Source: Pedobacter psychrophilus
Lineage (GTDB): Bacteria; Bacteroidota; Bacteroidia; Sphingobacteriales; Sphingobacteriaceae
Direction: 5' to 3'
Length of the DNA: 64,000 nucleotides
NCBI RefSeq assembly: GCF_001652725.1
Contig: NZ_LWHJ01000029.1
Coordinates: 248,001-312,000 of the forward strand
In this document: piece after piece, positions 14,936-40,814 of the stretch
How the letters are laid out: each line of letters opens with the position of its first letter
How positions within the stretch are numbered: position 1 is the first letter of the stretch
Notes under the pieces: model-generated
Told to the model about the DNA's origin: nothing
Databases searched by the model: none
What the model saw: only the letters and a program-made list of their open reading frames with translations
Translations under genes and position numbers: made by a program

Positions 14936-15305
14936 AAAATGATATTAAAAAGGTTTATTTGAGACTGAATGAGAAGATTTAGTTCAATTAGTCTATTTCA
15001 TTTATAAACAATTAAACCTTAGTTGGAGAGTATGGGTATTTAAAATAAACCAAAAAGTTTAAGTAATTAAATTCAAATACATACTTAGATTCGTTTAATA
15101 TAAATTAATCCCTAAAGAAAATTTTCTTAACTATTCCATAAGATTAGATTCGAATAATTGAGTTGGTTAACTAACCGTATATATTTCTATATAAAAAGCC
15201 ATATTGATATATAGGATCAAATGATGTTGATGTAGTGACCAGTTGCTTTGGTTAATAATAAATATGTCTGAGGATGACTTAACAAAAAGTTTTACAAAAC
15301 GGCTA
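14936..15305. other. Intergenic region upstream of the sugar kinase operon
   Basis: This 370-bp stretch holds the promoter region of the kinase-transporter operon, including the TACTCT-N13-AATTGTTTATAA motif on the - strand (15002-15032). The remainder, towards the YdeI-like gene that ends at 15306, shows nothing further that I can support. Confidence 0.5.
15002..15032 (-). promoter_or_regulatory. Shared glycan-regulon motif, site 1 (kinase-transporter operon)
   Basis: On the - strand this reads TACTCT, 13 bp (CCAACTAAGGTTT), then AATTGTTTATAA. It is an exact copy of the consensus and ends 67 bp before the kinase start codon. Six more copies with the same spacer precede the other transcription units of the region. 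Confidence 0.75.
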
Positions 15306-15917
15306 TTATATGCCGTTTTTCTGTCCACGGAATTGTTTTGGTTTTAAATTTTGGTCTGCAAGTTCTACAATTTCGGCAATTCTTTTTTGTCTAGTTTCTT
15401 GTCTTTTTGCAAGTGTAAGCCATTGTAAAATGTTTCTTTTGTCTGACCTGCTTAATCCTAAAAAAAAAGATTTTGCAATCGGTCGCTCTTCAAATTCTTC
15501 GTCTAAGTCCTTCGGGATAATTAAAGCTTCTGCATCGTCTAAAATTGTCCAAGAGCCGTTTTGTTTAGCAATTTCTATAATGTCAAAGCCCGCTTTTGTC
15601 ATTAGTCCTTCATTTGTTAAACGCAAAATTTTTTCTTTGTTTACTTTTGACCAAACGCTATTTTTTTTTCGTTTGCTAAAAAACTGCATAAACCTCTCAT
15701 CGTCTAACGGTTTCGATTTGCTATCAATCCAGCCAAAACAAAGTGCTTCGTCTACCGCTTCGCTATAAATTAATGTCGGAATGTTTGATTTCTTTTTGTA
15801 ATAGATAAGCCAAACTGATTGTTTTTTAAGGTGATTGTCTTGTAGCCATTCTCTCCATTTTTGTCGGCTTTCAGGATAAAATATTTCTATTACATCTTTG
15901 TCCATAAAGTTAATCAA
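15306..15917 (-). CDS. YdeI/OmpD-associated family protein
   Basis: A 203-residue soluble protein of the YdeI family. It shows the conserved WREWLQDNH start, WLIYYKKKS near residue 36, the EALCFGWIDS block near residue 59, RKKNSVWSKVN near residue 87 and a C-terminal RSDKRNILQWLTLAKRQETRQKRI segment. The E. coli relative has been linked to stress and antimicrobial-peptide tolerance, but the biochemical function is unknown. It carries none of the regulon motif and seems to be an accessory gene inside the glycan region. Confidence 0.8.
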   Translation of the reverse strand: MINFMDKDVIEIFYPESRQKWREWLQDNHLKKQSVWLIYYKKKSNIPTLIYSEAVDEALCFGWIDSKSKPLDDERFMQFFSKRKKNSVWSKVNKEKILRLTNEGLMTKAGFDIIEIAKQNGSWTILDDAEALIIPKDLDEEFEERPIAKSFFLGLSRSDKRNILQWLTLAKRQETRQKRIAEIVELADQNLKPKQFRGQKNGI

Positions 15918-16225
15918 CTATGTTTTTTTGTGCTATATTGAATTCCAAATGCTTAAAAAAGCACTTCTACCGCCCCCATTTTCACAAATCCGTGTGCAAG
16001 TATTGTAACCCACCGAATAACTGTACGGGTTCCTGCAAAAAGAGTATTCGGAAGAATACATTTATCTATACAAGGACAAACTTCACACTAAACAAAATAA
16101 AACTTTTTTCTAATTTAAAAAAATAAAAATGTAAGACTTTCTTGATGAATAATAGTGACACCTCATTAGCTGAACTTAAAAAAAATCAGCCCTCAATTCA
16201 ATATTTATTTTTTTAGTTAAACGGA
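15918..16225. other. Intergenic stretch with no supported gene
   Basis: About 308 bases between the divergent-side end of the YdeI-like gene and the stop codon of the GH3 gene. A + strand open frame at 15920-16126 has unusual composition (many Cys, Lys, Asn) and no recognisable domain, so I do not call it. No terminator-like hairpin with a T run was identified. Confidence 0.4.
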
Positions 16226-18424
16226 TTAAATAATTATTGCCTCTTTCAAAAATATCTGTCTACTAGAACCCCCAATAAGAAGTTCATATTTGCCTTTTTC
16301 AGAATCCCAATTTTTGATACTTTCATTATAGTATCTAAATGCTTCAGCGTCAATATTAATGCTTACTATTTTTGATTCGCCAGGCTTTAAAAATATTTTA
16401 TCAAAACCTTTCAATTCTTTTTCTGCTCGTACAATACTCGTCCCTACTTTTTTCACATACAATTGACTTACCTCTGCCCCATAAACTTTACCCGTATTGG
16501 TTACTGTAAAGGTTGCTGTAAAATTCTTTTCATCTGTTTTTGATACTTTTAAATCTTTATAAGAAAAAGTAGTGTAAGACAAACCATACCCAAATTCAAA
16601 TTGTGGAGCAATCTTTTTAGTATCATGCCAGCGGTAACCTACCAAAATATCGTCTTTATAATATTGCTTTAAATTAACACCTGGGTAACTGATTTCGCCA
16701 AAGGAGTGAGCGCCGTTATCGCTTAATTGTTTAGGAAAGGTAAAAGGTAATTTACCTGACGGATTCACATCTCCAGATAAAATAGATGCAATTGCATTTC
16801 CGGATTCGCTACCTAAATACCAAGATTGTACAACCGCCGAAGCTTGATTTAACCAAGGCATAGTAATAGCGTTTCCGCTAATTAATACCACTACTACTTT
16901 TTTATTCACTTTTGCAATTTCTGCAACTAATAAGTTTTGATTATAAGGCAAATCCATTGTCTTTCTATCAGCATCTTCCGAATCTTGAAAACTGTTTTTG
17001 TTTAAACCTCCTACAAATATGACAAGGTCAGATTCGGCAGCTAGCTTGATAGCTTCTTTTCTTAAAGAATCAGCATTTAATTTAGAAGGAAATTCATCAT
17101 TAACATGATAGGCCGTTTCACCAGCGGCATAACCCATTTGGTAATTGATTTGAGCCTGACTGCCAAATCTGTTTTGAATTCCCTTTAAAGGAGATATTTC
17201 ATATTTAACTTTTAAGCCAGAGCTTCCTCCACCAATGGTTAAACTTCTGGTTGCATTTTCGCCAATAACTGCAATTTTCTTTATTCCATTTAAATTTAGA
17301 GGTAAAATACTGTTTTGATTTTTTAGCAATACTATACCCTCTTCTGCAATTTGCTTTGCTGCTTTTGAATGAGCTTCTGAGACAAAACTTCCATAAGGTT
17401 TATCGTTATTCATTGATGTTCTGTACATCAATCTTAAAATTCTCCTTACTTTATCATTTAATGTTGCTACAGATGCCTCTCCATTTGCTAGCATTTTTTT
17501 ATACGGATTAGCCATGTAGTAGTAGTCATATACATTTTTAGCTCCAGATGATAAGCCATCGGTTCCTGTACCCATTTCTATATCCAAACCATGTTCTATG
17601 GCTTGCTTGCTACCATGTACTCCACCCCAATCAGATATTACTGCACCATCAAACTTCCATTCGGTTTTTAAAATTTTGTTCAACAGCAAATCGTTTTGGT
17701 TGCAATATTGCCCTCTAAACAAATTATAAGCACCCATCACCGACCATACTTTTGCTTTGGTTACTCCAGCATGAAAAGCAGGTAAATAAATTTCTCGCAT
17801 CGCTCTATCGCTCATATCAACATCAACAAAAAATCTATTTTTTTCTTGATTATTGAAGGCGTAATGCTTTAAACAAGCAGCAACACCATTCTCTTGAACT
17901 CCGGTAATGTAAGGTACAACCATTATCGAAGCTAAAAACGGATCTTCACCCATGTATTCAAAATTTCGTCCGTTTAAGGGTGTTCTGTAAATGTTAACTC
18001 CTGGTCCTAAAAGCACATTTTTCTCTCTATACCTAGCTTCTTCACCTATAGATCTTCCGTATAGTAAAGACATTTGTGGATTAAATGTTGCCGCTAAACA
18101 AGTTAAAGCTGGAAAAGCCAAGCAAGAGTCTATTGTCCAATCCGCATTTTTCCATCCATCCCAATTCCCTTCTGCTCTTATCCCGTGTGGACCATCACTC
18201 ATTTTAAGGTAAGGAATACCAAGACGAGGAACGCCCGCACTTGTAAAAGTTGATTGAGCGTGACATAAAGCTACTTTTTCATCTACGGTCATTAATGATA
18301 AAGCGTGTTCGATTCTTTTTTCTATTGGCTGATTTTCATCTAAATAAATTGCTTTTTGTGCATTTACTGATGTAAAACAGATTACTAAAGCAGGTAGAAG
18401 TAGAAATATTTTTAATTTTCGCAT
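16226..18424 (-). CDS. Secreted GH3 glycoside hydrolase (beta-glucosidase type)
   Basis: A 732-residue family 3 glycoside hydrolase. Residues 1-22 form a signal peptide (ending SVNAQ), so it acts in the periplasm or beyond. The (beta/alpha)8 domain has KHYAFNNQE at 186-194 and the nucleophile motif VISDWGG with Asp265. The alpha/beta sandwich domain follows from about residue 370 (VLLKNQNSILPLNL). The C-terminal part (from about 640) is a fibronectin III-like domain. GH3 enzymes release terminal beta-linked sugars such as glucose or xylose. It is the second gene of a unit headed by the Asp-rich protein gene, 56 bp upstream. Confidence 0.92.
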   Translation of the reverse strand: MRKLKIFLLLPALVICFTSVNAQKAIYLDENQPIEKRIEHALSLMTVDEKVALCHAQSTFTSAGVPRLGIPYLKMSDGPHGIRAEGNWDGWKNADWTIDSCLAFPALTCLAATFNPQMSLLYGRSIGEEARYREKNVLLGPGVNIYRTPLNGRNFEYMGEDPFLASIMVVPYITGVQENGVAACLKHYAFNNQEKNRFFVDVDMSDRAMREIYLPAFHAGVTKAKVWSVMGAYNLFRGQYCNQNDLLLNKILKTEWKFDGAVISDWGGVHGSKQAIEHGLDIEMGTGTDGLSSGAKNVYDYYYMANPYKKMLANGEASVATLNDKVRRILRLMYRTSMNNDKPYGSFVSEAHSKAAKQIAEEGIVLLKNQNSILPLNLNGIKKIAVIGENATRSLTIGGGSSGLKVKYEISPLKGIQNRFGSQAQINYQMGYAAGETAYHVNDEFPSKLNADSLRKEAIKLAAESDLVIFVGGLNKNSFQDSEDADRKTMDLPYNQNLLVAEIAKVNKKVVVVLISGNAITMPWLNQASAVVQSWYLGSESGNAIASILSGDVNPSGKLPFTFPKQLSDNGAHSFGEISYPGVNLKQYYKDDILVGYRWHDTKKIAPQFEFGYGLSYTTFSYKDLKVSKTDEKNFTATFTVTNTGKVYGAEVSQLYVKKVGTSIVRAEKELKGFDKIFLKPGESKIVSINIDAEAFRYYNESIKNWDSEKGKYELLIGGSSRQIFLKEAIII

Positions 18425-18480
18425 AAATTAAATTGGATTTTATGTATTGAAATTGAGTTTTAGTGCTGTTTATTAGGTAA

Positions 18481-20289
18481 TTAATTATTCATGATTTCCC
18501 ACTTACCGCTGTAATAAGCTTTATCTAGTTTATTCACCAGTTCTGTGTTATTTTTTTGAAGGTAATGCTGCCTTAAATCTTTATAAATGTAGAAGTTAAG
18601 CCAAAAGGCGTAATCGTATTTTTGATGAAGGCTCAATGGTGTTTTATAGAAGTTATACCAATGAGTGTTAACACCTGCCTTTTCTGCAATGGCGATAATT
18701 TCTTGCGCTCTCGACCAGTTTTTATCTGTTATAGTCTTAAAAATTTCTTTTCCATTTTGGTAAGTGAAGGACTCACTTTCTATAGTGGTTTGTTTATCAT
18801 CTATTCCTATTTTGCTAAATGAAACACTATCTTCAAAAATTTTATCTCCATCCAAATCGTAAAGAATTTTATCAATAAAACCATTGTTGTCAGTGTCTTC
18901 ATATTTAATTAGGGCAAATTTATCTGGCTGAATTTGCATTCTTCCTTTGCCTTTCCACCTATCGTACAAACCTCCATATCCCTGAAAAGAATTTGCAATT
19001 TGATCAACTCTCCAAGCACCCCATTCAGCACCATACAAATGGACCTTTCCATCAAAAGACCCAATATAAAGTTTACCTTTTCCAGAAAAGTCAGTATCAA
19101 ATTCTCCTCTATCACCTATTACATCGGCTTGCGGATTGTTATCTAAACCGCCTTTGTTAGCACCCATTTTAAATAAATCTTTAGGCTCATAATACTCCAC
19201 CCGCTCCCATCTGTTACAATCATCATCTTCATCAAAAACTAAACTGGCATAGTTCCAATCTCCTTTTTTAAAGGTTAAGTCCCAGGCATTATCTTTATTT
19301 GGAAAAATCAGCGTATCTAATTCTCTCCAGCGTTTATCGTAGAATAAAAAATCGGCTTGTTTGCCCAAACCTTTTAAACTTTTAAACTTGTTAACCTGTT
19401 TAGAATAATCAAAACCATTACCTTTTAAGAGCAAACTCATATCGAAATCGAACTCATTTGCTGGACTGTTATCGTTATCTAAATCCCATGTAATTCCTAC
19501 ATAATCCATCATCCCATTAAAATGAAGATCACGTTCTTTATCAATATTTTTAAAAATTGGATTTGAATTATCGGCAGGACGAAAAGTAGGCGTATTCACA
19601 AATCTTATAGCCATTTCCGATAAATTATCACCATCATAATCGTAAAAATGGAAAGGATTTTCCCATCCGTATTTTAGGTTATTAATTCTGAAACTAGAGG
19701 CATGGGTTTTTATGAAGGATGTATTACCATGATAGTCTTCAAAAAAGTTTGCATGCCCATTATGTTCCCAGGCAAGCATAGAAATGGTATTCCAATCAAT
19801 ATAATTCATGATTTGATCTTTATCTGTATCTAACACATACATAATTTCAGAATCAAAATCAAAAGCATTTCTTTTATCAATTGCTCCGTTATTTACAATA
19901 ACCTGCAAATCTGCTTTGCCATCCCCATCCTCATCACACCAATCAATACTAAAATCTAAAGGGCCAGCAAATATTCCATCTTTGTTTCTGTCAATTAAAA
20001 GGCAATCACTATCTGCATCGCCTTCTAAATCTGTCCATTTCATATCATCATCATCATCAATCCAAACCACTGGCACATCATTACTAATGGTATAGTAAAG
20101 CAAGTCTGGGTCGCCGTCTTTATCTAAATCAACCATCTTAAAGTTTGATTTTTGAATGTTTAAAGGCATTCTCCAAGGAATTAACTGCGTTTTATTGTTC
20201 CAATAAGTTTGGTTTTGTGAATAGGCAGAAATTATACTAATTAAAATTAGTATGGCTACAACAAAAAGTTTTTTAAAAATTTGATTCAT
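18481..20289 (-). CDS. Secreted Asp-rich calcium-loop protein of unknown function
   Basis: A 602-residue exported protein (signal peptide about residues 1-25, ending SAYSQ). The first 130 residues contain a series of EF-hand-like or FG-GAP-like Asp loops: DLDKDGDPD (54-62), DDDDD (78-82), DRNKDG (100-105) and DEDGDGKAD (119-127). More follow near 220, 335-350 and 465-485. The pattern is that of calcium-stabilised surface proteins. No catalytic domain is recognised. It heads the GH3 operon and carries the regulon motif upstream, so a role in binding or processing the same glycan is likely. Confidence 0.6.
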   Translation of the reverse strand: MNQIFKKLFVVAILILISIISAYSQNQTYWNNKTQLIPWRMPLNIQKSNFKMVDLDKDGDPDLLYYTISNDVPVVWIDDDDDMKWTDLEGDADSDCLLIDRNKDGIFAGPLDFSIDWCDEDGDGKADLQVIVNNGAIDKRNAFDFDSEIMYVLDTDKDQIMNYIDWNTISMLAWEHNGHANFFEDYHGNTSFIKTHASSFRINNLKYGWENPFHFYDYDGDNLSEMAIRFVNTPTFRPADNSNPIFKNIDKERDLHFNGMMDYVGITWDLDNDNSPANEFDFDMSLLLKGNGFDYSKQVNKFKSLKGLGKQADFLFYDKRWRELDTLIFPNKDNAWDLTFKKGDWNYASLVFDEDDDCNRWERVEYYEPKDLFKMGANKGGLDNNPQADVIGDRGEFDTDFSGKGKLYIGSFDGKVHLYGAEWGAWRVDQIANSFQGYGGLYDRWKGKGRMQIQPDKFALIKYEDTDNNGFIDKILYDLDGDKIFEDSVSFSKIGIDDKQTTIESESFTYQNGKEIFKTITDKNWSRAQEIIAIAEKAGVNTHWYNFYKTPLSLHQKYDYAFWLNFYIYKDLRQHYLQKNNTELVNKLDKAYYSGKWEIMNN

Positions 20290-20594
20290 TAAAATATATT
20301 AAACGATTAGGTACTTACCGCTAAAAGTAGTTTTGTAAAACTGCCAAGCTATTTGATACTATAGTTTAATTAAAAACAATTGATAAGGTTAATGAGAGTA
20401 GATAATTGTGAAGAAATTATGACTTTTTTATTTGCGACTTTTAAGGATGCCAACCAAAATCAGCGGTAACTTATTGTAACCATCAAATAGTTTAAAATTA
20501 ATTATTAGCTCAATTCAATTTAAGAGTTAAGATTAAGCTTAAAGACTGATTGATTATATCAAGTTTTTGATATGAAGAGTTGTAAGTAAAATTG
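20290..20594. other. Intergenic promoter region of the Asp-rich/GH3 unit
   Basis: This 305-bp stretch contains the regulon motif at 20370-20400 on the - strand, 81 bp upstream of the Asp-rich protein gene. The remaining part, next to the stop codon of the heparinase-like gene, shows no clear terminator. Confidence 0.5.
20370..20400 (-). promoter_or_regulatory. Shared glycan-regulon motif, site 2 (Asp-rich protein/GH3 unit)
   Basis: On the - strand: TACTCT, 13 bp (CATTAACCTTATC), then AATTGTTTTTAA. One mismatch to the consensus right half. It ends 81 bp before the start codon of the Asp-rich protein gene. Confidence 0.7.
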
Positions 20595-23198
20595 CTAGGG
20601 TTTAAAATTAATTATGATCTCTTTACCATTTTCTATGATTAATGAATTGGCGTTGTACTTTTTATTTTGCCATGTTAAGGTTTTATTATCTAGCGCTAGC
20701 AAAAGAATTTTATCTGTATTATCAATACTTATTTTTAATCCATAGGTATCTGAACTTGTTTCAAGCACATTTAATTTTATAGCTTGTTTAAGTTGATTTG
20801 CTGGAGTAGCAGCGAGAACGTAAGCCATTTGTGTATTTCCACTCTTTTGAACATTATACCTTAGCATCGGAATTGCTTGTTTTTCCCAAGATGTACTTTT
20901 TTCAAATGCCCAGCCTGCAATAAATGGTTTTTCTTGCCCTTTAAATATTTGCATAGTTTGATTTGGAAGTAACAAAGGTGATATAGTTAAAGAAGGTTGT
21001 GAAATGGAAGATATCACTCTATTAAAAGGATCAAATTCGCCCTTTTTTATTTGTATGATAGCTTCTTTTAAATCAAAATTTACATCTAACGTATCATCGC
21101 TACATTGAAATATGGTGCTATATTGATGGCTTTGATTATCAAGTGGTGCAAAAGCATCTACCAAAATCCAAACATCGGGTTTTAGGTAAAGAATATGACG
21201 AGTAATTATTGAAGGTCGGATACGTTCTTTACCCATAGTTTCGGCAGAATCTGCTCCATAAACACCGGCAGTATAATCTAAAGTATTTGAAGTGTACCAA
21301 GCCATTTGCGTTTTTTTATCCATTAAAACTTTTTCGGCTCTTCTATGCTGATCCAAATTATCTACAATAGGGGCACTTTTAGACATTGTTGTGGTAGAAA
21401 ATTCTCTGAAGGGATTTTGCTTTTCCCCATTTTCATAGCTATGTGGTCCACCATCAATAATATGCCTTACTCCGTAACCATCAACACTAATTGATAATTT
21501 ATCTTCATGCCCATGAGAAGTACCAAAAGGACCAGCATCCATAAATAAATAATTATCATCTTTTGTCCATCCAGAACGCATAATTGCCTGCCCACCGTCG
21601 GGAAATATCCAAGAAGTAGCTTTTATTGGTGTGCCAGATTTTCCATGGGTAGCAAACCACTGATAATCTTTACGCTCAGGAAAAAGCGGAACTGCGGAAG
21701 CTAAACGTTTATCCATAAGTGTATACATTCTATGAGAATCATTTAAAAAAGGCATAAGTCCATTAGGTTCAGAAGTGTACATCATATAATCAAACATCTT
21801 TTGTACAGAATTGACAATAATTGGCGAAGTTTCCATATTATTTTTTTTAGCAATTTCATAAAAATGTTGAACTCCAGATAAAGTAAGATCATGGTAACCA
21901 GGTGATAGCTCTTTATAAGATCCATCGGGCAGTACATCATTTTTTAATACATTCTCTAATCGGGTTACACCCAATTTTCTCCACTCTATAGATTCTTTAA
22001 ACTCTGGAAAAAAAACACTGCAGGCAAATAAACCTTCCGCTTGAGCGACTCCTCGGTTGGTAAATAATTCGGCACTTTCTTCTAAAAATCGCTGGTGCAT
22101 ATAAAATGCTTTTAACCAGTCAATCATAATATCATCGCTTAATTTTGGATAATCTTTAAGTGTATTAAATGCAATTAGCCAAGTACTGTTAACTCTAAAG
22201 CCCGTCTCTAAATTTCTCCATCTATTCCCAGCTTCTAATTGTTGTTTTGTAACATCTAAAGTACTACTTGAAAGCCAGTTTTCTAATTCATCAACTACTC
22301 TTTTTGCATATTTATCATTTGCTTTGGGATTGTTGATATAGCCTTGTATTAAATGAGGCCACCATTCAAAACGATTGAAGCCCCATGTCCAGTTAGAATT
22401 ACCTGCAGCAGCAAAAGACCAATCTATAGCTTCTACAGTATTTGGCTCAAAAGTATGAGACACCCCAAAAACGGTATATTTATTATTGAAAACATCATCT
22501 ATAGTTTTCTGATCTATGTAGTTATGAACTCTGCTAGGCATTGGCTTAGCAGGTCTTTGACGAAAATAAGTTGCTAATGCTTTACGAGCTTTTATATAAT
22601 TCCCAGCAGAAACAGCAGACTTAACGGCCTCAAGTTTTGGTAAATTGAGATTTATTTTTGAGAAAAAAACCTGATCTGATGGTAAATTTTTAGGGCTTAA
22701 ATCATTAACGATATTAACCGTTGTTGATGCAATATTATTGATAGCATAATTTGTGTTTTTTACTAAAGAAAGCTTTATTGTTCTGTCTTTACGCATTTTA
22801 CGATAATCTTTAATGCGATAGTCGGTTAAGGGTTGTACAATAATACTAGCAGTAGTTTCTCCAGCTTTAAAAACCACCTTATTAGCTAAAGAAACATAAT
22901 CTTTATCAGGAACTGCATCTCCATCTGAGACAACATAATTTACACTTAAACTGCCTAAACTGCTAGAGCGTTTAACATTTATTATAGCAGGAGTTAATGG
23001 GCCTTCGTAAGCATTGTAAGAATTTTGAACAAAAGTTACCGAGGTTTTAACCGATTGCTTTGCTTTGTTGGTTTGTGCAAAAGAGTAATTGACAAAAAGT
23101 AAAAGACATAAAAATAATTTAAATTTTAATCTTGCTTCTGATAAAATATTGTTTGCTATACACAAAGTAGTTGTGGTTTTCAATCTAAATTTGAACAT
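20595..23198 (-). CDS. Heparinase II/III-like polysaccharide lyase with N-terminal Calx-beta domain
   Basis: An 867-residue secreted protein. A hydrophobic signal lies at about residues 25-42 (FLCLLLFVNYSFAQ), so the true start may be somewhat downstream. About residues 50-170 form a Calx-beta-like domain (PDKDYVSLANKVVFKAGETTASIIVQP). The (alpha/alpha) toroid follows from about 175 to 520 (WTWGFNRFEWWPHLIQGY). The heparinase II/III beta-sandwich holds GTSHGHEDKLSISVDGYG around residues 559-576. Such enzymes cleave uronate-containing glycans by beta-elimination (families PL12, PL15, PL17, PL21). The exact family and substrate are undetermined. It is third in an operon with a lyase-like lipoprotein and a beta-helix protein. 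Confidence 0.8.
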   Translation of the reverse strand: MFKFRLKTTTTLCIANNILSEARLKFKLFLCLLLFVNYSFAQTNKAKQSVKTSVTFVQNSYNAYEGPLTPAIINVKRSSSLGSLSVNYVVSDGDAVPDKDYVSLANKVVFKAGETTASIIVQPLTDYRIKDYRKMRKDRTIKLSLVKNTNYAINNIASTTVNIVNDLSPKNLPSDQVFFSKINLNLPKLEAVKSAVSAGNYIKARKALATYFRQRPAKPMPSRVHNYIDQKTIDDVFNNKYTVFGVSHTFEPNTVEAIDWSFAAAGNSNWTWGFNRFEWWPHLIQGYINNPKANDKYAKRVVDELENWLSSSTLDVTKQQLEAGNRWRNLETGFRVNSTWLIAFNTLKDYPKLSDDIMIDWLKAFYMHQRFLEESAELFTNRGVAQAEGLFACSVFFPEFKESIEWRKLGVTRLENVLKNDVLPDGSYKELSPGYHDLTLSGVQHFYEIAKKNNMETSPIIVNSVQKMFDYMMYTSEPNGLMPFLNDSHRMYTLMDKRLASAVPLFPERKDYQWFATHGKSGTPIKATSWIFPDGGQAIMRSGWTKDDNYLFMDAGPFGTSHGHEDKLSISVDGYGVRHIIDGGPHSYENGEKQNPFREFSTTTMSKSAPIVDNLDQHRRAEKVLMDKKTQMAWYTSNTLDYTAGVYGADSAETMGKERIRPSIITRHILYLKPDVWILVDAFAPLDNQSHQYSTIFQCSDDTLDVNFDLKEAIIQIKKGEFDPFNRVISSISQPSLTISPLLLPNQTMQIFKGQEKPFIAGWAFEKSTSWEKQAIPMLRYNVQKSGNTQMAYVLAATPANQLKQAIKLNVLETSSDTYGLKISIDNTDKILLLALDNKTLTWQNKKYNANSLIIENGKEIIINFKP

Positions 23199-23228
23199 AA
23201 TTTATAATGTTATTTTTCCCTAAGCAAG

Positions 23229-24221: not shown

Positions 24222-24286
24222 AAATTATTCATTTTATAAAAAAAACCAAATAACATAACGATTAGAGAGAATATGGTTTTTAAAAA

Positions 24287-25773: not shown

Positions 25774-25804
25774 TTATAAACAATTGACAGTTAATCTAAG
25801 AGTA
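25774..25804 (-). promoter_or_regulatory. Shared glycan-regulon motif, site 3 (beta-helix/lyase unit)
   Basis: On the - strand: TACTCT, 13 bp (TAGATTAACTGTC), then AATTGTTTATAA, an exact copy of the consensus. It ends 48 bp before the preferred start codon at 25726. Confidence 0.75.
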
Positions 25805-29507: not shown

Positions 29508-29538
29508 CAATAAACAATTCAAACACGCCTAAAGAGTA
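29508..29538 (-). promoter_or_regulatory. Shared glycan-regulon motif, site 4 (DUF1961-like/GH28 unit)
   Basis: On the - strand: TACTCT, 13 bp (TTAGGCGTGTTTG), then AATTGTTTATTG, with the last two bases off consensus. It ends 123 bp before the start codon at 29385. Confidence 0.7.
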
Positions 29539-29660: not shown

Positions 29661-29691
29661 TACTCTCTTAATAATCTCAAATTGTTTATAA
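29661..29691 (+). promoter_or_regulatory. Shared glycan-regulon motif, site 5 (lyase-like paralog B)
   Basis: On the + strand: TACTCT, 13 bp (CTTAATAATCTCA), then AATTGTTTATAA, an exact copy of the consensus. It ends 93 bp before the start codon at 29784. A TAAGATTT about 12 bp further on could be the -7 element. This is the only site of the set on the + strand, matching the only + strand gene of the set. Confidence 0.75.
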
Positions 29692-32422: not shown

Positions 32423-32450
32423 CATTCATTAAGACAAGTACTTACCTTTA

Positions 32451-32508: not shown

Positions 32509-32823
32509 ATGGATAAAATATTTCTTGAACAATCTAAATGCCCAATTAAAAAAACCTTAGACATTATTGGCGGTAAGTGGAAATTGCGTATTATTTTCCA
32601 AATAGGAAGTGAAATTAGGCGGTATGGAGAGCTAAGGAAATTGATGCCAGATATAAGTGAAAAAATGTTGATTCAAGAATTAAAAAGCTTGGTAGAATAT
32701 GGTGTACTTAGCAAAAAATCATATCACCAAATACCACCTAAAGTTGAATATAATTTAACAGAAAAAGGATTTAAACTAATTCCTATAATAGATTTAATGA
32801 AAGAATTTGGTGCAGAAAATTAG
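32509..32823 (+). CDS. HxlR-family transcriptional regulator
   Basis: A 104-residue winged-helix regulator. It starts with the family-typical C-P-I-K-K-T-L-D-I-I-G-G-K-W-K opening, including the conserved N-terminal Cys12 that serves as redox or electrophile sensor in YodB/HypR. The recognition region is RRYGELRKLMPDISEKMLIQ and the wing contains PPKVEYNLTEKG. It probably controls the divergent flavin oxidoreductase and itself through the palindrome at 32451-32465. Confidence 0.9.
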   Translation: MDKIFLEQSKCPIKKTLDIIGGKWKLRIIFQIGSEIRRYGELRKLMPDISEKMLIQELKSLVEYGVLSKKSYHQIPPKVEYNLTEKGFKLIPIIDLMKEFGAEN

Positions 32824-32850
32824 TTATCATTCTTATGAAAGACGCACTTA

Positions 32851-33855
32851 TTACTCCGGCTTTTTATTCTTCCAAAGTTTAAAATCGTCCCATAAAATTT
32901 GAAGCGTTTTATCTTGAGCTCTTACATAAGAAACAAGTTCTTTTGAGGTGTAAAGCTTCATGGGGTTATAACCAGTAAGTCCGTTTGGTGCTTGATCATA
33001 ACTGCCATGGGTAAAGTCATGAACATCATAAACAACTTGTTTTTTCCCACCATCAGGTGTTATTGCCAAATAAAAACGACCGTTTTCTTTATTACCTTCT
33101 TTAAAATAGTAATCCATGGTAAACCATTTTCCAATAGGCACAGCCACATTTGAAGCTTTATAATCTGCTCGCCATAATAGCTTTTGACCAGCATTTTCTG
33201 CTTCTAAAATAAAATGTAAATCACTTTCTTCTGTTGTATATTTTCCTACTCCTACTGTTATTCTAAAACCATTTTTTTCTCCTTCAACCCACCATTCGTT
33301 GTTCCAAAATTCGGCAATGGTACACCAAGGAATTCTTTTTGGAAAACTTCTTGCTGCATTAAAATCATCGGTTAAGTAAACCCTAACCGATTGGTAAAAT
33401 TCTTTCATTCCGCCTTTAATACCGTACAGGTTCGTTTGAACTCTGGCTTTATTTTGTCCTTCGCTAGCTAACCACGAATCGTTTAACCAAAACTGTAATA
33501 CCGAGTTTTTAGGATCTGTAGGATCGGGAATAACTTTTGCAAAACGTTTTGTACTATCACCACCTGTGTATTGTACTTCCATTACCCCTTTACTTGTTAA
33601 TGCTTTTAAATCTTTATCCCAATCGCTTTTCTTACTGTAAGAATCAACTTTACCTGCAATATGTTCTAAACTTGCGCCGTAATCATTAGTTCCTTTTTCT
33701 TCCACAACTTTAGAAGTTCCTTCAAAACCGCTTTGGAAAATGAGTTCGGGTTTCCCCGATATGGAAGTGGATTTTTGAGTTGTACAGCTAAAAGAAAACA
33801 ATAGTAGAGCGGAAAATAAAATTCCTTTAGTTAAGAATATGTTGTGTTTGATCAT
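32851..33855 (-). CDS. Polysaccharide lyase-like lipoprotein, paralog C
   Basis: The start at 33855 is preferred over 33906 because it gives a compact lipoprotein signal (MIKHNIFLTKGILFSALLLF then SFSC). The mature domain is the same jelly roll as paralogs A and B and is very close to A: ARVQTNLYG, EFYQSVRVYLTDDF, EFWNNEWW, IGKWFTMDYYFKEGN, GRFYLAITPDGG, GYNPMKLYTSKELV and ILWDDFKLW. It is last in the unit with the GH28 and the second DUF1961-like gene. A and C therefore sit in separate units that each also encode other glycan enzymes. Confidence 0.65.
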   Translation of the reverse strand: MIKHNIFLTKGILFSALLLFSFSCTTQKSTSISGKPELIFQSGFEGTSKVVEEKGTNDYGASLEHIAGKVDSYSKKSDWDKDLKALTSKGVMEVQYTGGDSTKRFAKVIPDPTDPKNSVLQFWLNDSWLASEGQNKARVQTNLYGIKGGMKEFYQSVRVYLTDDFNAARSFPKRIPWCTIAEFWNNEWWVEGEKNGFRITVGVGKYTTEESDLHFILEAENAGQKLLWRADYKASNVAVPIGKWFTMDYYFKEGNKENGRFYLAITPDGGKKQVVYDVHDFTHGSYDQAPNGLTGYNPMKLYTSKELVSYVRAQDKTLQILWDDFKLWKNKKPE

Positions 33856-33991
33856 TAGTTTAATTATTAAAAATATTTTATCTAAAGTTTTAATGTTGTT
33901 AGACAACTTATGTTAAAAAAGCGATAATTTGAAACCTGTTTATTGATTTACTGTGAAATAATAGATCAATGGCTTTCCCATTAATATGAAA

Positions 33992-35581
33992 TTAATTCAG
34001 ATTAAACCTTACACCTTCTTGGTTTTTAGGCACTACTTCTCCTTTAAATACTTTTCCAGTTTGTACACCATTTTTATTGTAAACTTTTAAATTCCTAAAA
34101 ACCATTTTTGTGCGTAACATACAACGTATGGCGATGCGTCCAAAATCTAAAACCGGCCCGTTATTGATAAATCCATCATCTTTACAATCAAACATAATTA
34201 TACCATCTATTGCCCCAATTAACCTGTTTCCTATTTGTAAAAATTGCAGTTTGTGCCAAGTATCTTTGGTTAATGGAATACTTTTAGATCCAAATGCCAT
34301 TGGATAGTTCCATGGCTCTTTTACAATGGCCGAGTTGTCTAAATCGTTTCGCATATCAGCCATTTCACGATAATATTCCCAATGATAACTACGTACATCC
34401 TCACCATAAATCATGGTCATGCGTCCGCTTTTTCTCAAGGGATAATCGGCCATAAAATCTTCACGGTTCATCCCCGAAGCTTGTGTAAGCAATAAACTTA
34501 GCCCGCCTGGTCGTAAAGTTTTATACTCATACTCAACATACAAATCTCCTTCAAAAGGTTTACGTGTCCACACATACATTTGAGAGTCTAATACTGCCGA
34601 ATTCATTTCTTTGTTGATGGTTTCAATTAATAGACCTTCTTTGGTAATTGCAACTTCTACTGGCTTTCCTTGTATATAAAAGCTATCTAAATCTGTAGAT
34701 TTTGTAAGTGATAGATTCAATTTAGATTTCCAAGTGTTATCGAGTTTCCAAGTAAAAGGTTTCCTATCTTTCCCAGCATAGGTATGTTGAAGCTCTTGTT
34801 CTAACGCTATGCTTTTTTGAGTGTCCTCTTTTTTAAATTGGCTGTATAATTCATTTTCAGATAAATTAGTATTGTAGAATTTGATATCGCTATAAGCTAA
34901 AGTAGGGTTACCAAGATATAAGGAAGAATTTATGGTATCTCTATGAAATTTGGTAGCTCTGTATTGGTCTTCTTTACCAATTGGAATTCCGTTTACGTAC
35001 ATTCTGTATTCGTCTTTTTCATAATCCCAAGTGAGGGAAAAGTTGTACCAAGTATTTCTTTTGAAACTAAAATGACTAACCTCTACCAATGCTCTATGGG
35101 GGAAATTAAAAGCATTTTCATAAAGCTTATCCTTTGCAAAAAGAGCCATAATGTTAGGATGCCAAGCATTTATCCATACCATTTTAAAATTAGCATTAAT
35201 GATATCTTGTGGGTTTGGATTGTCTGACAATAACGGATAAATAGTCCAATATGGATTACTAATGGCCATGCTTGGTTTCGCATTAGATGTACCCAAATCT
35301 TCTAAAGACATTACCCACATAGAAACTGTACCCTTGTTAGCTTTCATGGTATGCGCCTTTAACTGTAACACGCTTTGAATGCTGGTGGTATTTAAACCCT
35401 CACGTCCGCCTACTTTTACTACTCTGGCCGGACCTTTTAATTTTACCAATGAGGTGTCCTTTAAAGAAAAATCGTTTAGATAGGTATAAGCAGGCTTTGG
35501 TGTTTGAGCTTTTAGATTTGTGCCGCACATCAATAACATGAGGCATATCAGCTGATACTTGATTTTAATTTTTAAGATCAT
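33992..35581 (-). CDS. Secreted DUF1961-like protein with N-terminal LamG-like domain, paralog 2
   Basis: A 529-residue exported protein (signal ending LKAQ, residue 25) with the same two-part layout as the gene at 27829-29385: LamG-like segment (GTVSMWVMSLEDLG, NTWYNFSLTWDYEKDEYRMY) and DUF1961-like segment (GGLSLLLTQASGMNREDFMA, RSYHWEYYREMADMRND, WHKLQFLQIGNRLIGAIDG, GRIAIRCMLRTKMVFRNLKV). It ends in an extra basic tail of about 20 residues. It sits between a GH28 gene (70 bp upstream) and lyase-like paralog C, so it mirrors the arrangement at 25969-29385. Confidence 0.6.
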   Translation of the reverse strand: MILKIKIKYQLICLMLLMCGTNLKAQTPKPAYTYLNDFSLKDTSLVKLKGPARVVKVGGREGLNTTSIQSVLQLKAHTMKANKGTVSMWVMSLEDLGTSNAKPSMAISNPYWTIYPLLSDNPNPQDIINANFKMVWINAWHPNIMALFAKDKLYENAFNFPHRALVEVSHFSFKRNTWYNFSLTWDYEKDEYRMYVNGIPIGKEDQYRATKFHRDTINSSLYLGNPTLAYSDIKFYNTNLSENELYSQFKKEDTQKSIALEQELQHTYAGKDRKPFTWKLDNTWKSKLNLSLTKSTDLDSFYIQGKPVEVAITKEGLLIETINKEMNSAVLDSQMYVWTRKPFEGDLYVEYEYKTLRPGGLSLLLTQASGMNREDFMADYPLRKSGRMTMIYGEDVRSYHWEYYREMADMRNDLDNSAIVKEPWNYPMAFGSKSIPLTKDTWHKLQFLQIGNRLIGAIDGIIMFDCKDDGFINNGPVLDFGRIAIRCMLRTKMVFRNLKVYNKNGVQTGKVFKGEVVPKNQEGVRFNLN

Positions 35582-35651
35582 ATTGATTTTTTTATAAGAT
35601 TCCTTCTTTTTTTAAGTTGTATTAATTGAAATATTTAGCTTTGGAGCATGT

Positions 35652-37136
35652 CTATTTCCTCCGCACTAAGTTATCAACATCTTCTATAACCATAGCCTCC
35701 CGTGGATCATGGCAATTAAGTTTTAATTTTATGTTTTGAAGTTTTAAACAGTTTATATATTTAAAATTGAAACCATAACTAGAAAGATTACCCAATGTAT
35801 GTGATGATGGATAACCCGCTTTCTTTTCTTTAAGCAGCTTGGTCATATCTATATTTCTATCACTAGCATTGCCAGCATGAGAAAGTTCTATATCGATATT
35901 TTTGAGTGTAATGTTTTCTACTCGATTTGTAGTATTTAAACCTGTAACAGAAGAAGATAAAGGTCCTGCTCCTGTTGCTTTAAAATTAGAAATCAATATA
36001 TTATTTATGGTTCCTACAGATGGAACTTTTGCGGTACTTGTATGTTTTCTACTGCGGTTTCCAAGCGTAACAAAAATGGGGGTAACACAATCTGTAGCTG
36101 CTATGTTATCAAACCAAACGTTTTCCATTTTACCACCATCTGTTATTATTAAGGTAATAGCAGTTTGAGTGGTTTCTGTTCCGTTAACGTAATGTAAACC
36201 CGTAACAGATTGTACCACTTTACAATTGCGAAATAGAATATTTTTAAATCCTCCTGTAGTTTCTGTACCGAGTTTTAAAGCGTTACAATGGCTAGATGCT
36301 ATACAATTTTCTACCAATATATTTTCACATAGAGAAGGCCCATTACTTTTTAAACAAATTGCATCATCATCACTATCAACTCGGCAATTACGTATATAAA
36401 CATTTTTACAACCGTCAATATCAATTCCATCATTATTTTGATGCGCATGGTTAAACACATTGATATTTTCTATCATCACGTTCTCACAATTCAAATAATG
36501 CTGCATCCATTGAGCTGAGTTAAGTAACATAATACCCGCAACATAAATATTTTTAGAACTAATGATTCTTATTCCAAATGGCCTACGAATGTCATTATCA
36601 CCCATCCCTAAATACACTGGACTATCCCCTTTAAAATCGATGGTTCCTTTACCAGTTATAGATATTCCATCTACATTTTCGGCATAAAATAAAGATTTAT
36701 CTACCTGTCTATCGGTGTTGTTTTTGTAGGGAGATTTATAAATTGGATAGTCTTTGGTATTTGTACTTCCTAAAATTTTAGCATTTTTATCTAATTCTAT
36801 GTGCAGACCAGATTTTAATTCTAGCGTACCCGTAAGGTAAACGCCAGCAGGAAAGTATAATCGCGAAGGTCCATTTTTGATACAGCTATTAATAGCTTTT
36901 TGAAGTTGTTGAGTGGTGATCTCTAATCCGTTATTTTTAGCGCCAAAATCTGTGACAACATTAAAAACAGGGAGTTTGCTTTTATCAACAAATAATACTT
37001 TTGTTAAATTTTGAGCCATAACTTCTAAGTTTGAAGCTAATTTTTGGTTATCAAAACCTGATGTTTGCCCAAGTAGATTGTTTATTAAAGCGAAAACTAA
37101 AAGGGTAACAAGCTTTAATAAAATTTTAACTCTCAT
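35652..37136 (-). CDS. Secreted GH28-family glycosidase
   Basis: A 494-residue exported beta-helix hydrolase (signal about residues 1-24, ending LLGQ). The GH28 start is PVFNVVTDFGAKNNG near residue 56. The catalytic Asp motifs are NNDGID (234-239) and SDDDAICLKS (255-264). The third motif is ALKLGTETTGGF, with GTE in place of the classic G-H-G. Members cleave polygalacturonan or related uronic-acid linkages. It heads a three-gene unit and carries the regulon motif 61 bp upstream. Confidence 0.87.
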   Translation of the reverse strand: MRVKILLKLVTLLVFALINNLLGQTSGFDNQKLASNLEVMAQNLTKVLFVDKSKLPVFNVVTDFGAKNNGLEITTQQLQKAINSCIKNGPSRLYFPAGVYLTGTLELKSGLHIELDKNAKILGSTNTKDYPIYKSPYKNNTDRQVDKSLFYAENVDGISITGKGTIDFKGDSPVYLGMGDNDIRRPFGIRIISSKNIYVAGIMLLNSAQWMQHYLNCENVMIENINVFNHAHQNNDGIDIDGCKNVYIRNCRVDSDDDAICLKSNGPSLCENILVENCIASSHCNALKLGTETTGGFKNILFRNCKVVQSVTGLHYVNGTETTQTAITLIITDGGKMENVWFDNIAATDCVTPIFVTLGNRSRKHTSTAKVPSVGTINNILISNFKATGAGPLSSSVTGLNTTNRVENITLKNIDIELSHAGNASDRNIDMTKLLKEKKAGYPSSHTLGNLSSYGFNFKYINCLKLQNIKLKLNCHDPREAMVIEDVDNLVRRK

Positions 37137-37446
37137 TTTTATATTTAGTGTTTATTATTATGTACTATTCTCTTTATAGAAAAACTGTATTCTACTTAAT
37201 AAACATCTGGTAAGGGCAAATAGAGTATTAGAAAACGTTATTTATTATCTTTCCTAATTAAACTTATTCAAAGCTACCTTCTTGCATCAAACCAATAAGT
37301 CCTTTTTGATTAATAAAAGCAAAAAATTGGTACTTATATCGTTAACCTACTAAAGTTTAAATTATAACCCCTCAAATATCGAACTTCAAAAATAAACGCA
37401 GCTTAAATGCGTGAATAATTAATTTAATTTTTATAATTTATTATTC
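37137..37446. other. Intergenic promoter region of the GH28/DUF1961/lyase unit
   Basis: This 310-bp stretch carries the regulon motif at 37197-37227. The rest, up to the stop of the sorbosone-dehydrogenase-like gene, has no obvious gene or terminator. Confidence 0.5.
37197..37227 (-). promoter_or_regulatory. Shared glycan-regulon motif, site 6 (GH28/DUF1961/lyase unit)
   Basis: On the - strand: TACTCT, 13 bp (ATTTGCCCTTACC), then AGATGTTTATTA, which keeps the TGTTTAT core. It ends 61 bp before the start codon at 37136. TACAGTTT about 8 bp further on could be a -7 element. Confidence 0.65.
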
Positions 37447-38754
37447 TTATTGCTTACTCACTCTCCAAATCTTCTTGCCGGCATCGTCAGCAATTAATAA
37501 TGAACCATTTTTACTAAAAGCAACGCCTACTGGTCTTCCATAAACTAAACTTCCCTCTATATTGGCAATAAAACCAGTTAAAAAATCTTGTTTTGGCCCA
37601 GAAGGTTTTCCATTTTTAAAAGGAACAAATACTACTTTATATCCACTTAACTCAGTTCTATTCCAAGAACCATGTTGCCCAATAAACATCCCATCTTTGT
37701 AATTATTTCCTAAACCATTCTTATTGTTAAAAGCTAAACCAAGAGAAGCAGTATGGCTACCTAACGAAACATCAGGGACTAAAGTAGAATTTACTAAATC
37801 CATTTTTTCACCTTTCATTCTGGGATCAGGATTTTTACCAAAATAAGCATAAGGCCAGCCATAAAATGCGTTTTCTTTTACACTTGTAGTGTAATCTGGC
37901 ACCAAATCATCGCCTAAACCATCTCTTTCGTTAACTGCAGTCCATAGTACATTAGTGCTGCTCCAGCCCATCCCTACCGGATTTCTTAAACCACTGGCGT
38001 AAATTCTTTGTCCACTTCCATCAGGATTGATTTCTAGAATACAGGCTCTATTAACTTCGTTTGCAATTCCATTTTCGGCAACATTACTTCCAGAACCTAC
38101 CGAAATATAAATTTTAGTCCCATCCTGATTTGCAATGATATTTCTTGTCCAATGGTTATTATAACCACCCGCAGGTAAATCTAAAATCTTTTTGCCTTCG
38201 CCTTTAATCTCTTCCTGCCCGTTTGTATAATCGTAAGTCCAAAGTCCGTTTGTATTTGCTACATAAAACTTTCCGTTAAGTATTAGCATGCCTAATGGTC
38301 GGTTTAAGCCTTTCAAAAAGGTCTTTTTTAATTCTGGAATCCCATCATTATTTTTATCTCTCAACAAAATTATGGTGTTACTGCTTTTTAATCCAGGCTT
38401 CTTCATATTAGCAGTTTTTATAAATCCATCATCAATGGTATTGGCTAATGAAACAAATATATCCCCGTTAGGAGCCGTATAAATCCACCTAGGATTATCC
38501 AAACTATCGGCAAATAAAGACACTTTAAGTCCTTCTGGTGCTTTAGGCATTAGACCTACTGGCCAGCCTACAATCTTTGAATTATTTACTACTGATTTAG
38601 TTGCAAATGGCTTGGGAAGTATTACAGAATCTTTATAAGCTAAAGGCTTAAATTCTGAATTTTGCGACCCCTTGTTTACGCTACATGCAACCGTTGTAGT
38701 TATAATTGTTATTAATATAAATCTTGTATAAATTATTCTCATAGTTTTATTCAC
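37447..38754 (-). CDS. Exported PQQ-dependent sugar dehydrogenase-like (sorbosone dehydrogenase family) lipoprotein
   Basis: A 435-residue beta-propeller protein. A second start at 38742 (MRIIYTRFILI) gives a cleaner signal ending TTVACS (lipobox-like, Cys about 24). Propeller motifs include PRWIYTAPNGDIFVS, GRPLGMLILNGKFYVANTNG, YISVGSGSNVAENG, GLRNPVGMGW, GWPYAYFG and GRPVGVAFSKNGSLLIADD. Relatives oxidise aldoses with PQQ in the periplasm. Whether PQQ is bound here is uncertain, and no partner cytochrome gene is adjacent. It overlaps the upstream nucleoside-hydrolase-like gene by 8 bp. Confidence 0.8.
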   Translation of the reverse strand: MNKTMRIIYTRFILITIITTTVACSVNKGSQNSEFKPLAYKDSVILPKPFATKSVVNNSKIVGWPVGLMPKAPEGLKVSLFADSLDNPRWIYTAPNGDIFVSLANTIDDGFIKTANMKKPGLKSSNTIILLRDKNNDGIPELKKTFLKGLNRPLGMLILNGKFYVANTNGLWTYDYTNGQEEIKGEGKKILDLPAGGYNNHWTRNIIANQDGTKIYISVGSGSNVAENGIANEVNRACILEINPDGSGQRIYASGLRNPVGMGWSSTNVLWTAVNERDGLGDDLVPDYTTSVKENAFYGWPYAYFGKNPDPRMKGEKMDLVNSTLVPDVSLGSHTASLGLAFNNKNGLGNNYKDGMFIGQHGSWNRTELSGYKVVFVPFKNGKPSGPKQDFLTGFIANIEGSLVYGRPVGVAFSKNGSLLIADDAGKKIWRVSKQ

Positions 38755-39700
38755 CTTTTTGTATTTTAATTCTTCTTAAAGCCTCTTCTAATAATTTAAA
38801 AGTAGCTTCTCTTTCTATATCATAAATTCTTGTGAAAGTGCCTTTATTCTTACTAAAATCATACTTATAATCATCTTTTACAGAAGGTAATTTTGCTGTT
38901 TCCCATTTTACTACATTTACATCTATAAGGGCAGCAATGTCGCCTAAATCAAACATTCCTTTATCGGGTAATTGTGCGTATGCCGATTTTTTTCTAATAT
39001 CATGTAAATATTGACCAAAGCTCCCGTTGCTTGCAATTCTTATTTCAGACTCATGCATTGGCATATTTAAATTAGAACCGGTATCAAACAAAATGAATGG
39101 CGCTGTAGCATCAAATAAAACCTGTACCGCTTTAAGATCGTTAGTAGCGTTAAAATTCCAGCAACGTTCTGGCCAAGCTGTTCTGCCATGCCATAAAACA
39201 ATTATGTTTTTATTAATGCTAGAATCTTTTAATATGGCGGCAGCTGCATTTGTTGCAGCACCCAAAGAAATTACCCATAGCGGGTTTTCTGGTGAAGCTT
39301 TTTTAGCTTCTTCGATGATAAAATCTACCCCTTCTGATAGAGGTGGCGCATCTAAATAAGAGATAGGGTCGGAACCCATTTTTATAATAAATTTATCCTT
39401 AAAGCCGGCTTTATCTAAAACCTCCAAAATATTATTGTAAGATTTTTGAATTCCTTTTACTCCGCCTCTTGTGCCATAATGTGCGGCTACAAAGCCTTCA
39501 ATTTGAAAACGTTCTGGATATCCCAGCAATAATGCCATCGCCCATTGGTCGTCCACTTCATTAGCGGCATCGGTATCAATAATGACTTTTAATTTTCCGT
39601 TAGGTACAGGCCAAGTAGGCATTTTCTTTTGCGAGAAAACAAATTGAGAAATTGATAACAAAAAGAAACTCAATATTAAAAATAAACTAAGCTTTCTCAT
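38747..39700 (-). CDS. Secreted nucleoside hydrolase-fold protein, paralog 2
   Basis: A 317-residue exported protein (signal about residues 1-23, ending FVFSQ). It has the metal-binding signature of inosine-uridine nucleoside hydrolases, VIIDTDAANEVDDQWAMALLL at about residues 39-59, and LGAATNAAAAILKD near residue 146. The family uses calcium to hydrolyse N-ribosides. Export and the setting among glycan enzymes are unusual and suggest a furanoside of another kind, which is inference. It overlaps the next gene and is itself overlapped by 4 bp by the upstream paralog. Confidence 0.8.
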   Translation of the reverse strand: MRKLSLFLILSFFLLSISQFVFSQKKMPTWPVPNGKLKVIIDTDAANEVDDQWAMALLLGYPERFQIEGFVAAHYGTRGGVKGIQKSYNNILEVLDKAGFKDKFIIKMGSDPISYLDAPPLSEGVDFIIEEAKKASPENPLWVISLGAATNAAAAILKDSSINKNIIVLWHGRTAWPERCWNFNATNDLKAVQVLFDATAPFILFDTGSNLNMPMHESEIRIASNGSFGQYLHDIRKKSAYAQLPDKGMFDLGDIAALIDVNVVKWETAKLPSVKDDYKYDFSKNKGTFTRIYDIEREATFKLLEEALRRIKIQKGE

Positions 39701-40644
39701 TTGCTTTCCTTTAACTTTTGAATAGATTGGTAATAACTCTCCTTCATTTTTCTGTTATCAAATTTTGTATAAACTGATATTGAGCGAGGTGTATTCTCTA
39801 AAGGTGTTTTAACCTTTTTTATTGTTGCAAACGATGGATTTAAGTATGCTTCTACCAAGGCAACATCCCATAATGTTCTTACTTTATCATCTGGATTAGT
39901 ATCTAACCAGCGTTGCTTTAGGTATTTTAAAACTGGGTTATCACTATCAAAAACAGCGTATAATGAGTCTCTTTCAAACTTAAAAGGTTCTGCAGTAGTT
40001 ATAGGCATTACAATTAGTTGTATTGATTTTTGGTTTAGCAAATAATCAAAAGCGTTTAAATCGTTACGGATATTGAACTCATTTTTATCCCAATATTTAT
40101 TTTTTGCATCATACCTTGCGCCTAATAAATAGCATTCTATATGTTTTGTAATTGAGCTATCCATTGCAACAGCAGATGCAATATTTGTTAATGCTCCTAA
40201 AGAAATTATATGTAATTTTTCATTTGGTGAAAGTGATTTTACAGCCGAAATAATTTGCTTAGCTGCATCAGAACTGCGATAATTTGTTCCACCCCACGCT
40301 CTTCCAATTTGCCTATCGGCACCTATTGGATGTGTGATGTTTAATTTATCGCTTAACGCTAAAATTTCTTCGTTTAGCTGTTGCGATATTTTGACCGTAT
40401 TTATATTTTTTGTGGGATATTGATTCCATTTATCAAAGGCCACCAAATCTGCATTGTTAAAGTGAGCAGAACTTAAACCCACTAAGTTTATGGAGGTATC
40501 ATTCAATAATCTTACAATTGCATAAACATCGTCTGTTTCGTTGCCTGTATCAGCATCTAACCAAACTTTTTGCTTTTGTCCGTAAGCAATTCCCGAATTG
40601 ATGATTAAACAAATTAAACTTAAAAATATAATTACTTTCCTCAT
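39697..40644 (-). CDS. Secreted nucleoside hydrolase-fold protein, paralog 1
   Basis: A 315-residue exported protein (signal about residues 1-22, ending IAYGQ). The metal-binding motif is VWLDADTGNETDDVYAIVRLL at about residues 27-47, with SLGALTNIASAVAMDS near residue 146 and NIRNDLNAFDYLL near residue 190. It is clearly related to the downstream paralog but divergent from it. The ATGA overlap between the two genes shows tight translational coupling. It heads the unit with the sorbosone-dehydrogenase-like gene and carries the regulon motif upstream. Confidence 0.8.
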   Translation of the reverse strand: MRKVIIFLSLICLIINSGIAYGQKQKVWLDADTGNETDDVYAIVRLLNDTSINLVGLSSAHFNNADLVAFDKWNQYPTKNINTVKISQQLNEEILALSDKLNITHPIGADRQIGRAWGGTNYRSSDAAKQIISAVKSLSPNEKLHIISLGALTNIASAVAMDSSITKHIECYLLGARYDAKNKYWDKNEFNIRNDLNAFDYLLNQKSIQLIVMPITTAEPFKFERDSLYAVFDSDNPVLKYLKQRWLDTNPDDKVRTLWDVALVEAYLNPSFATIKKVKTPLENTPRSISVYTKFDNRKMKESYYQSIQKLKESK

Positions 40645-40783
40645 TTTATTAAACCGGCCTAATCAAATTTGTGGTGTTAAATGCCTATTAACTAGGCAAA
40701 ATTTTAAGGTTTTTTAAAAAATCTCTTCTTCTAATTACATTAAAATCTATAATTGATCAAGAAAAATCTTATTTCCTCTACCT

Positions 40784-40814
40784 TTATAAACAAGTAAAAT
40801 ACGTTGAAAGAGTA
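40784..40814 (-). promoter_or_regulatory. Shared glycan-regulon motif, site 7 (nucleoside hydrolase unit)
   Basis: On the - strand: TACTCT, 13 bp (TTCAACGTATTTT), then ACTTGTTTATAA, one mismatch from consensus. It ends 140 bp before the start at 40644. TAAGATTT follows about 12 bp later, as at site 5. Confidence 0.7.

Follow-up and report, generated by a model that had tools for sequence, protein, structure and literature searches.

A bipartite motif in a glycan region of Pedobacter psychrophilus is probably the core promoter of a nearby ECF sigma factor

In promoters of ECF sigma factors, two blocks stand at a constant distance of about 15-17 bp, and transcription begins a few nt downstream of the -10 block. 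In Bacteroidota, the known promoter motifs of these sigmas seem to be few. As far as the accessible text of a 2020 paper goes, none was then known for the ECFs of Bacteroides thetaiotaomicron. In the same species, TGTT is found near the -10 position of two promoters assigned to the ECF sigma SigW-1, the accessible text itself giving the SigW-1 motif as statistically non-significant (PMC12596196). In the part of its description that is accessible, SM6 of Flavobacterium psychrophilum is an alternative-sigma promoter with a short conserved -10 box, reminiscent of the motif described here; SM6, however, has CGT in its -10 box and drives type IX secretion genes, whereas TGT and glycan genes are found here (PMC9723704).

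The window, i.e. the whole stretch of 64,000 nucleotides analysed (C29:248001-312000, C29 being contig NZ_LWHJ01000029.1), contains a glycan region in which an earlier note had listed seven 31-bp motif copies. All seven are present at those positions and in those orientations, with TACTCT in 7/7, TGTTT in 7/7 and 13 bp between the halves as they had been written; the distance from the end of the 31-mer to the ATG, given there as 48-140 bp, was measured as 47-139 bp, in near agreement. When up to three mismatches are allowed, the window holds seven matches, against 0.65 expected, and none of 100 shuffles reaches seven; the seven sites are confirmed to be real and not due to chance. The strict form TACTCT-N16-TGTTT-N3-A has eight matches in the 4.0-Mb genome and none for its reversed control, all eight being confined to 56 kb (C29:263002-319230). 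Six are sites of the earlier note, whose 29508 site lacks the final A, and two lie past the window end. As strict matches continue to C29:319230, the regulon extends beyond the window.

The blocks common to related loci are TACTC[TC] and [TA]TGT[TAC][TA] with a 15-bp spacer (the refined motif), the longer right half AATTGTTTATAA being local to the C29 region. The likeness is restricted to these two short blocks, the 15 bp between them differing among copies. The refined motif has nine sites inside the window (Table 1) and five beyond; two of the nine had been missed or excluded before. In particular, the GH30-GH92-GH5 operon had been thought to lack the motif, which does not hold for the refined form, a variant lying just before it. 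The YdeI, DUF1905, HxlR and MerR units, also said to lack it, indeed have no match to the refined pattern. Beyond the window, strict-type sites precede a GH31 gene (L010:909) and a gene for a 373-aa protein without Pfam match (L010:7200), and weaker ones precede DUF4142, NHL/Por_Secre_tail and GH2 genes.

Table 1. Putative promoters and other features of the region (positions are those of the window unless a contig or locus is given)
Feature	Position	Strand	Unit preceded or remark
Putative ECF-type promoter TACTCT-N15-TTGTTT	15006..15032	-	PfkB kinase 14012-14935, ureide-permease/sugar-transporter-like gene 13007-14008
Putative promoter TACTCT-N15-TTGTTT	20374..20400	-	18481-20289 (no Pfam match), GH3 (16226-18424)
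Putative promoter TACTCT-N15-TTGTTT	25778..25804	-	beta-helix protein, gene without Pfam match, heparinase II/III-like protein (20595-25726)
Putative promoter TACTCT-N15-TTGTTT	29512..29538	-	DUF1961 protein (27829-29385), GH28/CBM6 (25969-27738)
Putative promoter TACTCT-N15-TTGTTT	29661..29687	+	29784-30884 (366 aa, no Pfam match)
Putative promoter TACTCT-N15-ATGTTT	37201..37227	-	GH28 (35652-37136), DUF1961 (33992-35581), 32851-33906 (no Pfam match)
Putative promoter TACTCT-N15-TTGTTT	40788..40814	-	two nucleoside-hydrolase-like genes, GSDH/DUF7133-like gene (37447-40644)
Variant putative promoter TACTCC-N15-ATGTTA	52545..52571	-	28 bp before GH5-like/GH92/GH30 operon (46766-52516)
Variant putative promoter TACTCT-N15-TTGTAT	52935..52961	+	gluconate 2-dehydrogenase subunit 3 (52970-53500), then GMC oxidoreductase (53507-55198)
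ECF sigma, 197 aa	C29:332107-332700 (L019:2107-2700)	-	
70-aa ORF (mini-FecR)	L019:3410-3622	-	
HTCS, 1395 aa	C29:333940-338127 (L019:3940-8127)	+	
Phage-type tyrosine integrase	L019:8589-9806		near contig end
GMC oxidoreductase/gluconate_2-dh3 pairs	52970-55198; G618 C37:15402-20766; G000 C11:528136-535322		G000, own genome
Four consecutive ORFs, 182-190 aa	59207-61504	-	adjoin 1013-aa PKD-like protein
Two tandem motif copies, 78 bp apart	G000 C11:540957-541061		before full FecR of paralogous locus

GMC oxidoreductase and gluconate_2-dh3 genes are found as pairs at three places, their neighbours being oxidoreductase-like and isomerase-like by eye, and the DUF1961 protein has a weak match to a 3-keto-disaccharide hydrolase; together these features suggest a possible 3-keto-glycoside degradation route. 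The four consecutive ORFs near the window end are possibly tandem paralogues.

With the letters allowed in the blocks widened after looking at these loci, the spacer was assessed in two sets of sequences. In eight regions (534 kb), some of them (C11:500-537 kb, where C11 is another contig of the same genome, and, in other genomes, G618 C18 beyond 60 kb, G615 C9:270-290 kb and G567) retrieved once matches had been seen in them, 41 instances of the refined motif have the 15-bp spacer; each of 12 other spacers yields 1-5, and the reversed control at 15 bp yields three. In 264 kb around sigma homologues, stretches whose choice was free of bias since they were selected before scanning, except for the own-genome part already included in whole-genome scans, TACTCY-Nk-TTGT is matched 10 times when k=15 and 0-3 times at each of 21 other values of k, the reversed control at 15 giving three; the exact core TACTCT-N15-TTGTTT has no match in these 264 kb. 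Enrichment is thus seen at 15 bp only, as expected of the constant spacing in an ECF promoter. Moreover, 37 of the 41 sites are intergenic and at most 201 bp from a same-strand ATG, with an ORF coverage of 84-90%. The other four comprise two before gluconate-dehydrogenase starts within over-extended ORFs and two inside other G618 ORFs.

Some sites are conserved at individual genes. The site before the 18481-20289 gene is common to C29 and G618 (80 and 77 bp from the ATG), and a like site also precedes gluconate 2-dehydrogenase subunit 3 in G618; none was seen before the G618 orthologue of PfkB, nor does any match directly precede the C29 SusC gene. At the gluconate 2-dehydrogenase promoter, the end of the -10 block is 9 nt from the ATG in G618 (MTRR start) and 8 and 14 nt from the two possible ATGs in C29; the C11 copy, 28 nt from the MTRR start, does not discriminate. 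With the -10 end here only 8-14 nt before the ATG, neither a -33 element nor a site for an upstream activator would fit, and transcription would have to start almost immediately.

Some 20 kb beyond the end of the window is a gene for a 197-aa ECF sigma (Pfam Sigma70_r2, 7e-14; r4_2, 5e-11), next to two SusC/SusD pairs, which are made up of two SusD genes and two TonB-receptor-plug (SusC-like) genes. The cluster also contains a hybrid two-component sensor (HTCS) with Reg_prop, Y_Y_Y, HisKA, HATPase, receiver and HTH_18 domains, and a 70-aa ORF, termed here mini-FecR, which is on the strand of the sigma gene and some 0.7 kb upstream of it. A phage-type tyrosine integrase stands beside the HTCS gene and the cluster may be a mobile island. 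The clustering of the strict matches, the Pfam assignments of the sigma and HTCS beyond the end and the homologue searches described below all support the earlier proposal of a regulon whose regulator is encoded outside the window.

The motif is also found at loci of sigma homologues in G618 (71% identical), on the C11 contig (60%), in G615 (55% and 49%), G507 (44%) and G567 (39%). Its co-occurrence with a cognate sigma and close homologues, as for an ECF promoter, is apparent from the sigma tree (30 homologue loci plus two), where the seven sigmas labelled motif-bearing form one clade among 32 (support 0.97), the labels being uneven since 20-105 kb were searched at motif-bearing loci and about 3.5 kb at each of the other 25. 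When an equal 3.5 kb is taken at all sigma loci, a match occurs in 4/30 (all in the clade, the G615 locus not among them), against 1/30 for the control. The -10 form differs from locus to locus: it is mostly TGTAT in G618, TGTA[AT] or TGTTA at the C11 locus, and TGTCT in G615, G507 and G567. In G507 and G567, which have sigma-FecR-SusC loci, the motif lies 30 and 36 bp before the full FecR gene adjoining the sigma gene; in G615, the nearest site is 5 kb from the sigma at 83.6 kb. Two tandem motif copies also stand before the full FecR gene of the paralogous C11 locus.

At the scale of whole genomes, 14 of the 16 own-genome matches to a looser form fall within the sigma/HTCS loci of C29 and C11 (control for the whole genome, 11); the corresponding figures are 8/13 for the two locus contigs of G618 (control, 8), 5/9 for contig C9 of G615 (control, 10) and just 1/12 near the sigma in G507 (control, 7). 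Class-wide, some strict match exists in 167/395 genomes, the own genome having the largest number (8), followed by G295 (7, six being copies of one repeat). On G295 contigs C24 and C32, TACTCTGTTTAGGGTTACTATTTGTTT occurs inside the six copies of this repeat, probably an unrelated likeness. In 251 family genomes, the TACTCC/TTGTCT form shows no enrichment, 17 matches being spread over 16 genomes and the control having 43, and for this reason a family-wide promoter was dropped and the motif-sigma link is limited to the clade. Conservation of the motif with its target genes was likewise rejected, as the best score at 19 DUF1961-relative loci is 14.7 with a ten-site weight matrix, own sites reaching 29-32 with a seven-site matrix of somewhat different scale.

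Our results make it highly probable that these sequences serve as the core promoter (-35 TACTC[TC], 15 bp, -10 [TA]TGT[TAC][TA]) of the 197-aa ECF sigma, which would switch on a large, dispersed glycan regulon. Of the two possibilities raised in the earlier note, an activator site or an alternative-sigma promoter, the second is favoured because the motif tracks one ECF sigma clade and not the HTCS homologues, because its spacer is fixed and because start codons can stand 9-14 nt off.

The motif could alternatively be a direct-repeat-like operator of the neighbouring HTCS, whose DNA-binding domain is of AraC type, activating sigma-A promoters just downstream. The two halves begin 21 bp from each other, which is the mean given for HTCS sites in the accessible part of the source (PMC3878776), and the HTCS with its HTH_18 domain adjoins the sigma gene. 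Furthermore, with the best two HTCS candidates and the best 12 or fewer sigma candidates retained per genome, the same three of 251 family genomes, namely this one, G618 and G615, harbour both the nearest HTCS homologues (56-59%) and the nearest sigma homologues (49-71%). The two halves TACTCT and TTGTTT, however, have only 3/6 letters in common, no -7 box follows, and two promoters are too near the ATG. If the HTCS were the reader, the motif should occur with HTCS genes regardless of sigma; 31 loci of HTCS homologues (at most 52% identity) gave no spacer-15 match in 341 kb, 27 of them covering about 7 kb each, L042-L045 overlapping the four larger stretches and one in G505 holding a weak sigma fragment (E 6e-8). 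Conversely, the motif is present in G507 and G567, where the 30 and 20 kb retrieved contain no HTCS match, a distant HTCS (37%) lying elsewhere in the G567 genome. The absence of matches at HTCS-homologue loci makes an HTCS operator improbable.

It is still less probable that an ordinary sigma-A promoter has its -33 element in AATTGTTTATAA, TACTCT being an activator box for some other regulator, even though TTG is similar to the TTTG that forms the -33 element in promoters of Bacteroidetes, in what is accessible of their description (PMC7366714). Such a promoter should have a TAnnTTTG box 17-23 bp after TTG; none was found at that distance, the mean agreement over 12 sites being 3.25 of 6 letters (shuffled, 3.62). 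Together with the start codons 9-14 nt off in two promoters, this -7 test opposes the activator-plus-sigma-A model, and at related loci TGTAT and TGTCT stand in for TGTTT. That the motif is a non-promoter repeat, mobile or structural, scattered over an island would account for the restriction of strict copies to one region, and has a negligible probability given two short blocks alike around 15 differing bp, 37/41 sites upstream and co-oriented, and the same arrangement in other genera.

The C29 locus possesses the ECF sigma of a FecI/FecR system and no full membrane FecR: neither in the 104 kb of C29 nor at the G618 locus was a full-length FecR found, only the 67-70-aa protein, the G618 relative (67 aa, 46% identity) occupying the same place. 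With a profile of 22 FecR N-termini, some of them visibly misaligned, both mini-FecRs rank best among 1291 small ORFs (E 3e-6 and 5e-7; next, 0.09), and hhalign gives a probability of 82% for the match to the FecR N-terminus. These two results make the link between mini-FecR and the FecR N-domain; Pfam gives no FecR match for mini-FecR, and a two-sequence mini-FecR profile reaches the G507 FecR at E 0.007 only. The mini-FecR gene has a separate motif copy upstream, TACTCC-N15-TTGTTA, common to C29 and G618 (24 and 25 bp), so that positive autoregulation of the sigma, encoded about 0.7 kb downstream on the same strand, is possible. In the accessible text of one study, E. coli FecR fragments, from residues 1-59 to 1-85, activate FecI, and a like fragment of FpvR inhibits its sigmas (PMC9249621); mini-FecR could therefore be either an activator or an inhibitor. 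HTCS sensing may have displaced FecR signalling at the C29 locus. As a full FecR is present in the same cluster as HTCS and sigma both at the C11 locus and in G615, FecR loss does not simply follow from HTCS presence.

One scheme would be the following. The HTCS would sense a glycan and raise expression of the sigma, for which PorXY-SigP offers a precedent; mini-FecR would bind the sigma as pro-sigma or anti-sigma; with or without it, the sigma and RNA polymerase would transcribe the dispersed units from about 15 TACTC/TGT promoters, inducing the enzymes and perhaps, judging from gene order, the sigma itself. We infer the promoter strongly, and the HTCS and mini-FecR steps weakly. A more specific version is that signalling has been rewired, FecR having shrunk to a separate, autoregulated N-domain pro-sigma and an HTCS having taken over both glycan sensing and activation of the sigma gene, so that a large, dispersed regulon would be governed by an HTCS-to-ECF relay. 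We regard it as a tentative and rather doubtful proposal, slightly more so since C11 and G615 were seen to hold HTCS, sigma and full FecR together.

The motif would represent a Bacteroidota ECF promoter with a constant -35 and a -10 differing between related sigmas. It provides a ready regulon map which takes in rare DUF1961 and GH28-like genes, and the arrangement of HTCS, ECF and mini-FecR would illustrate a way of combining two modes of glycan sensing. None of the titles retrieved in a literature search to which most subscription journals were closed names this motif or an HTCS-ECF relay, and the novelty of both is provisional.

Like the Bacteroides HTCS regulons, in the accessible part of their description (PMC3878776), the locus has an HTCS gene in a SusC/SusD locus and a 21-bp distance between half starts; unlike them, its motif tracks a sigma clade and not the HTCS. 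As in PorXY-SigP of Porphyromonas gingivalis, from the accessible text (PMC4800418, PMC8265659), a two-component system would act with an ECF sigma, but here the sensor of this putative cascade would be a one-protein HTCS belonging to a glycan locus. The E. coli FecR N-terminal pro-sigma fragments fit the 70-aa protein in length and domain; they are, in the text available, truncation or cleavage products of a full FecR (PMC9249621), whereas mini-FecR apparently has its own gene. Finally, the FecI/FecR sigma/anti-sigma systems beside SusC/SusD resemble this locus in that the ECF sigma, with its regions 2 and 4, is encoded close to SusC/SusD, and the putative promoter stands before a full FecR gene in G507, G567, G615 and at the own C11 locus; C29 and G618 differ in having only a 67-70-aa FecR-N-like protein and an HTCS in the cluster, and about 15 dispersed promoters are found here instead of one operon.
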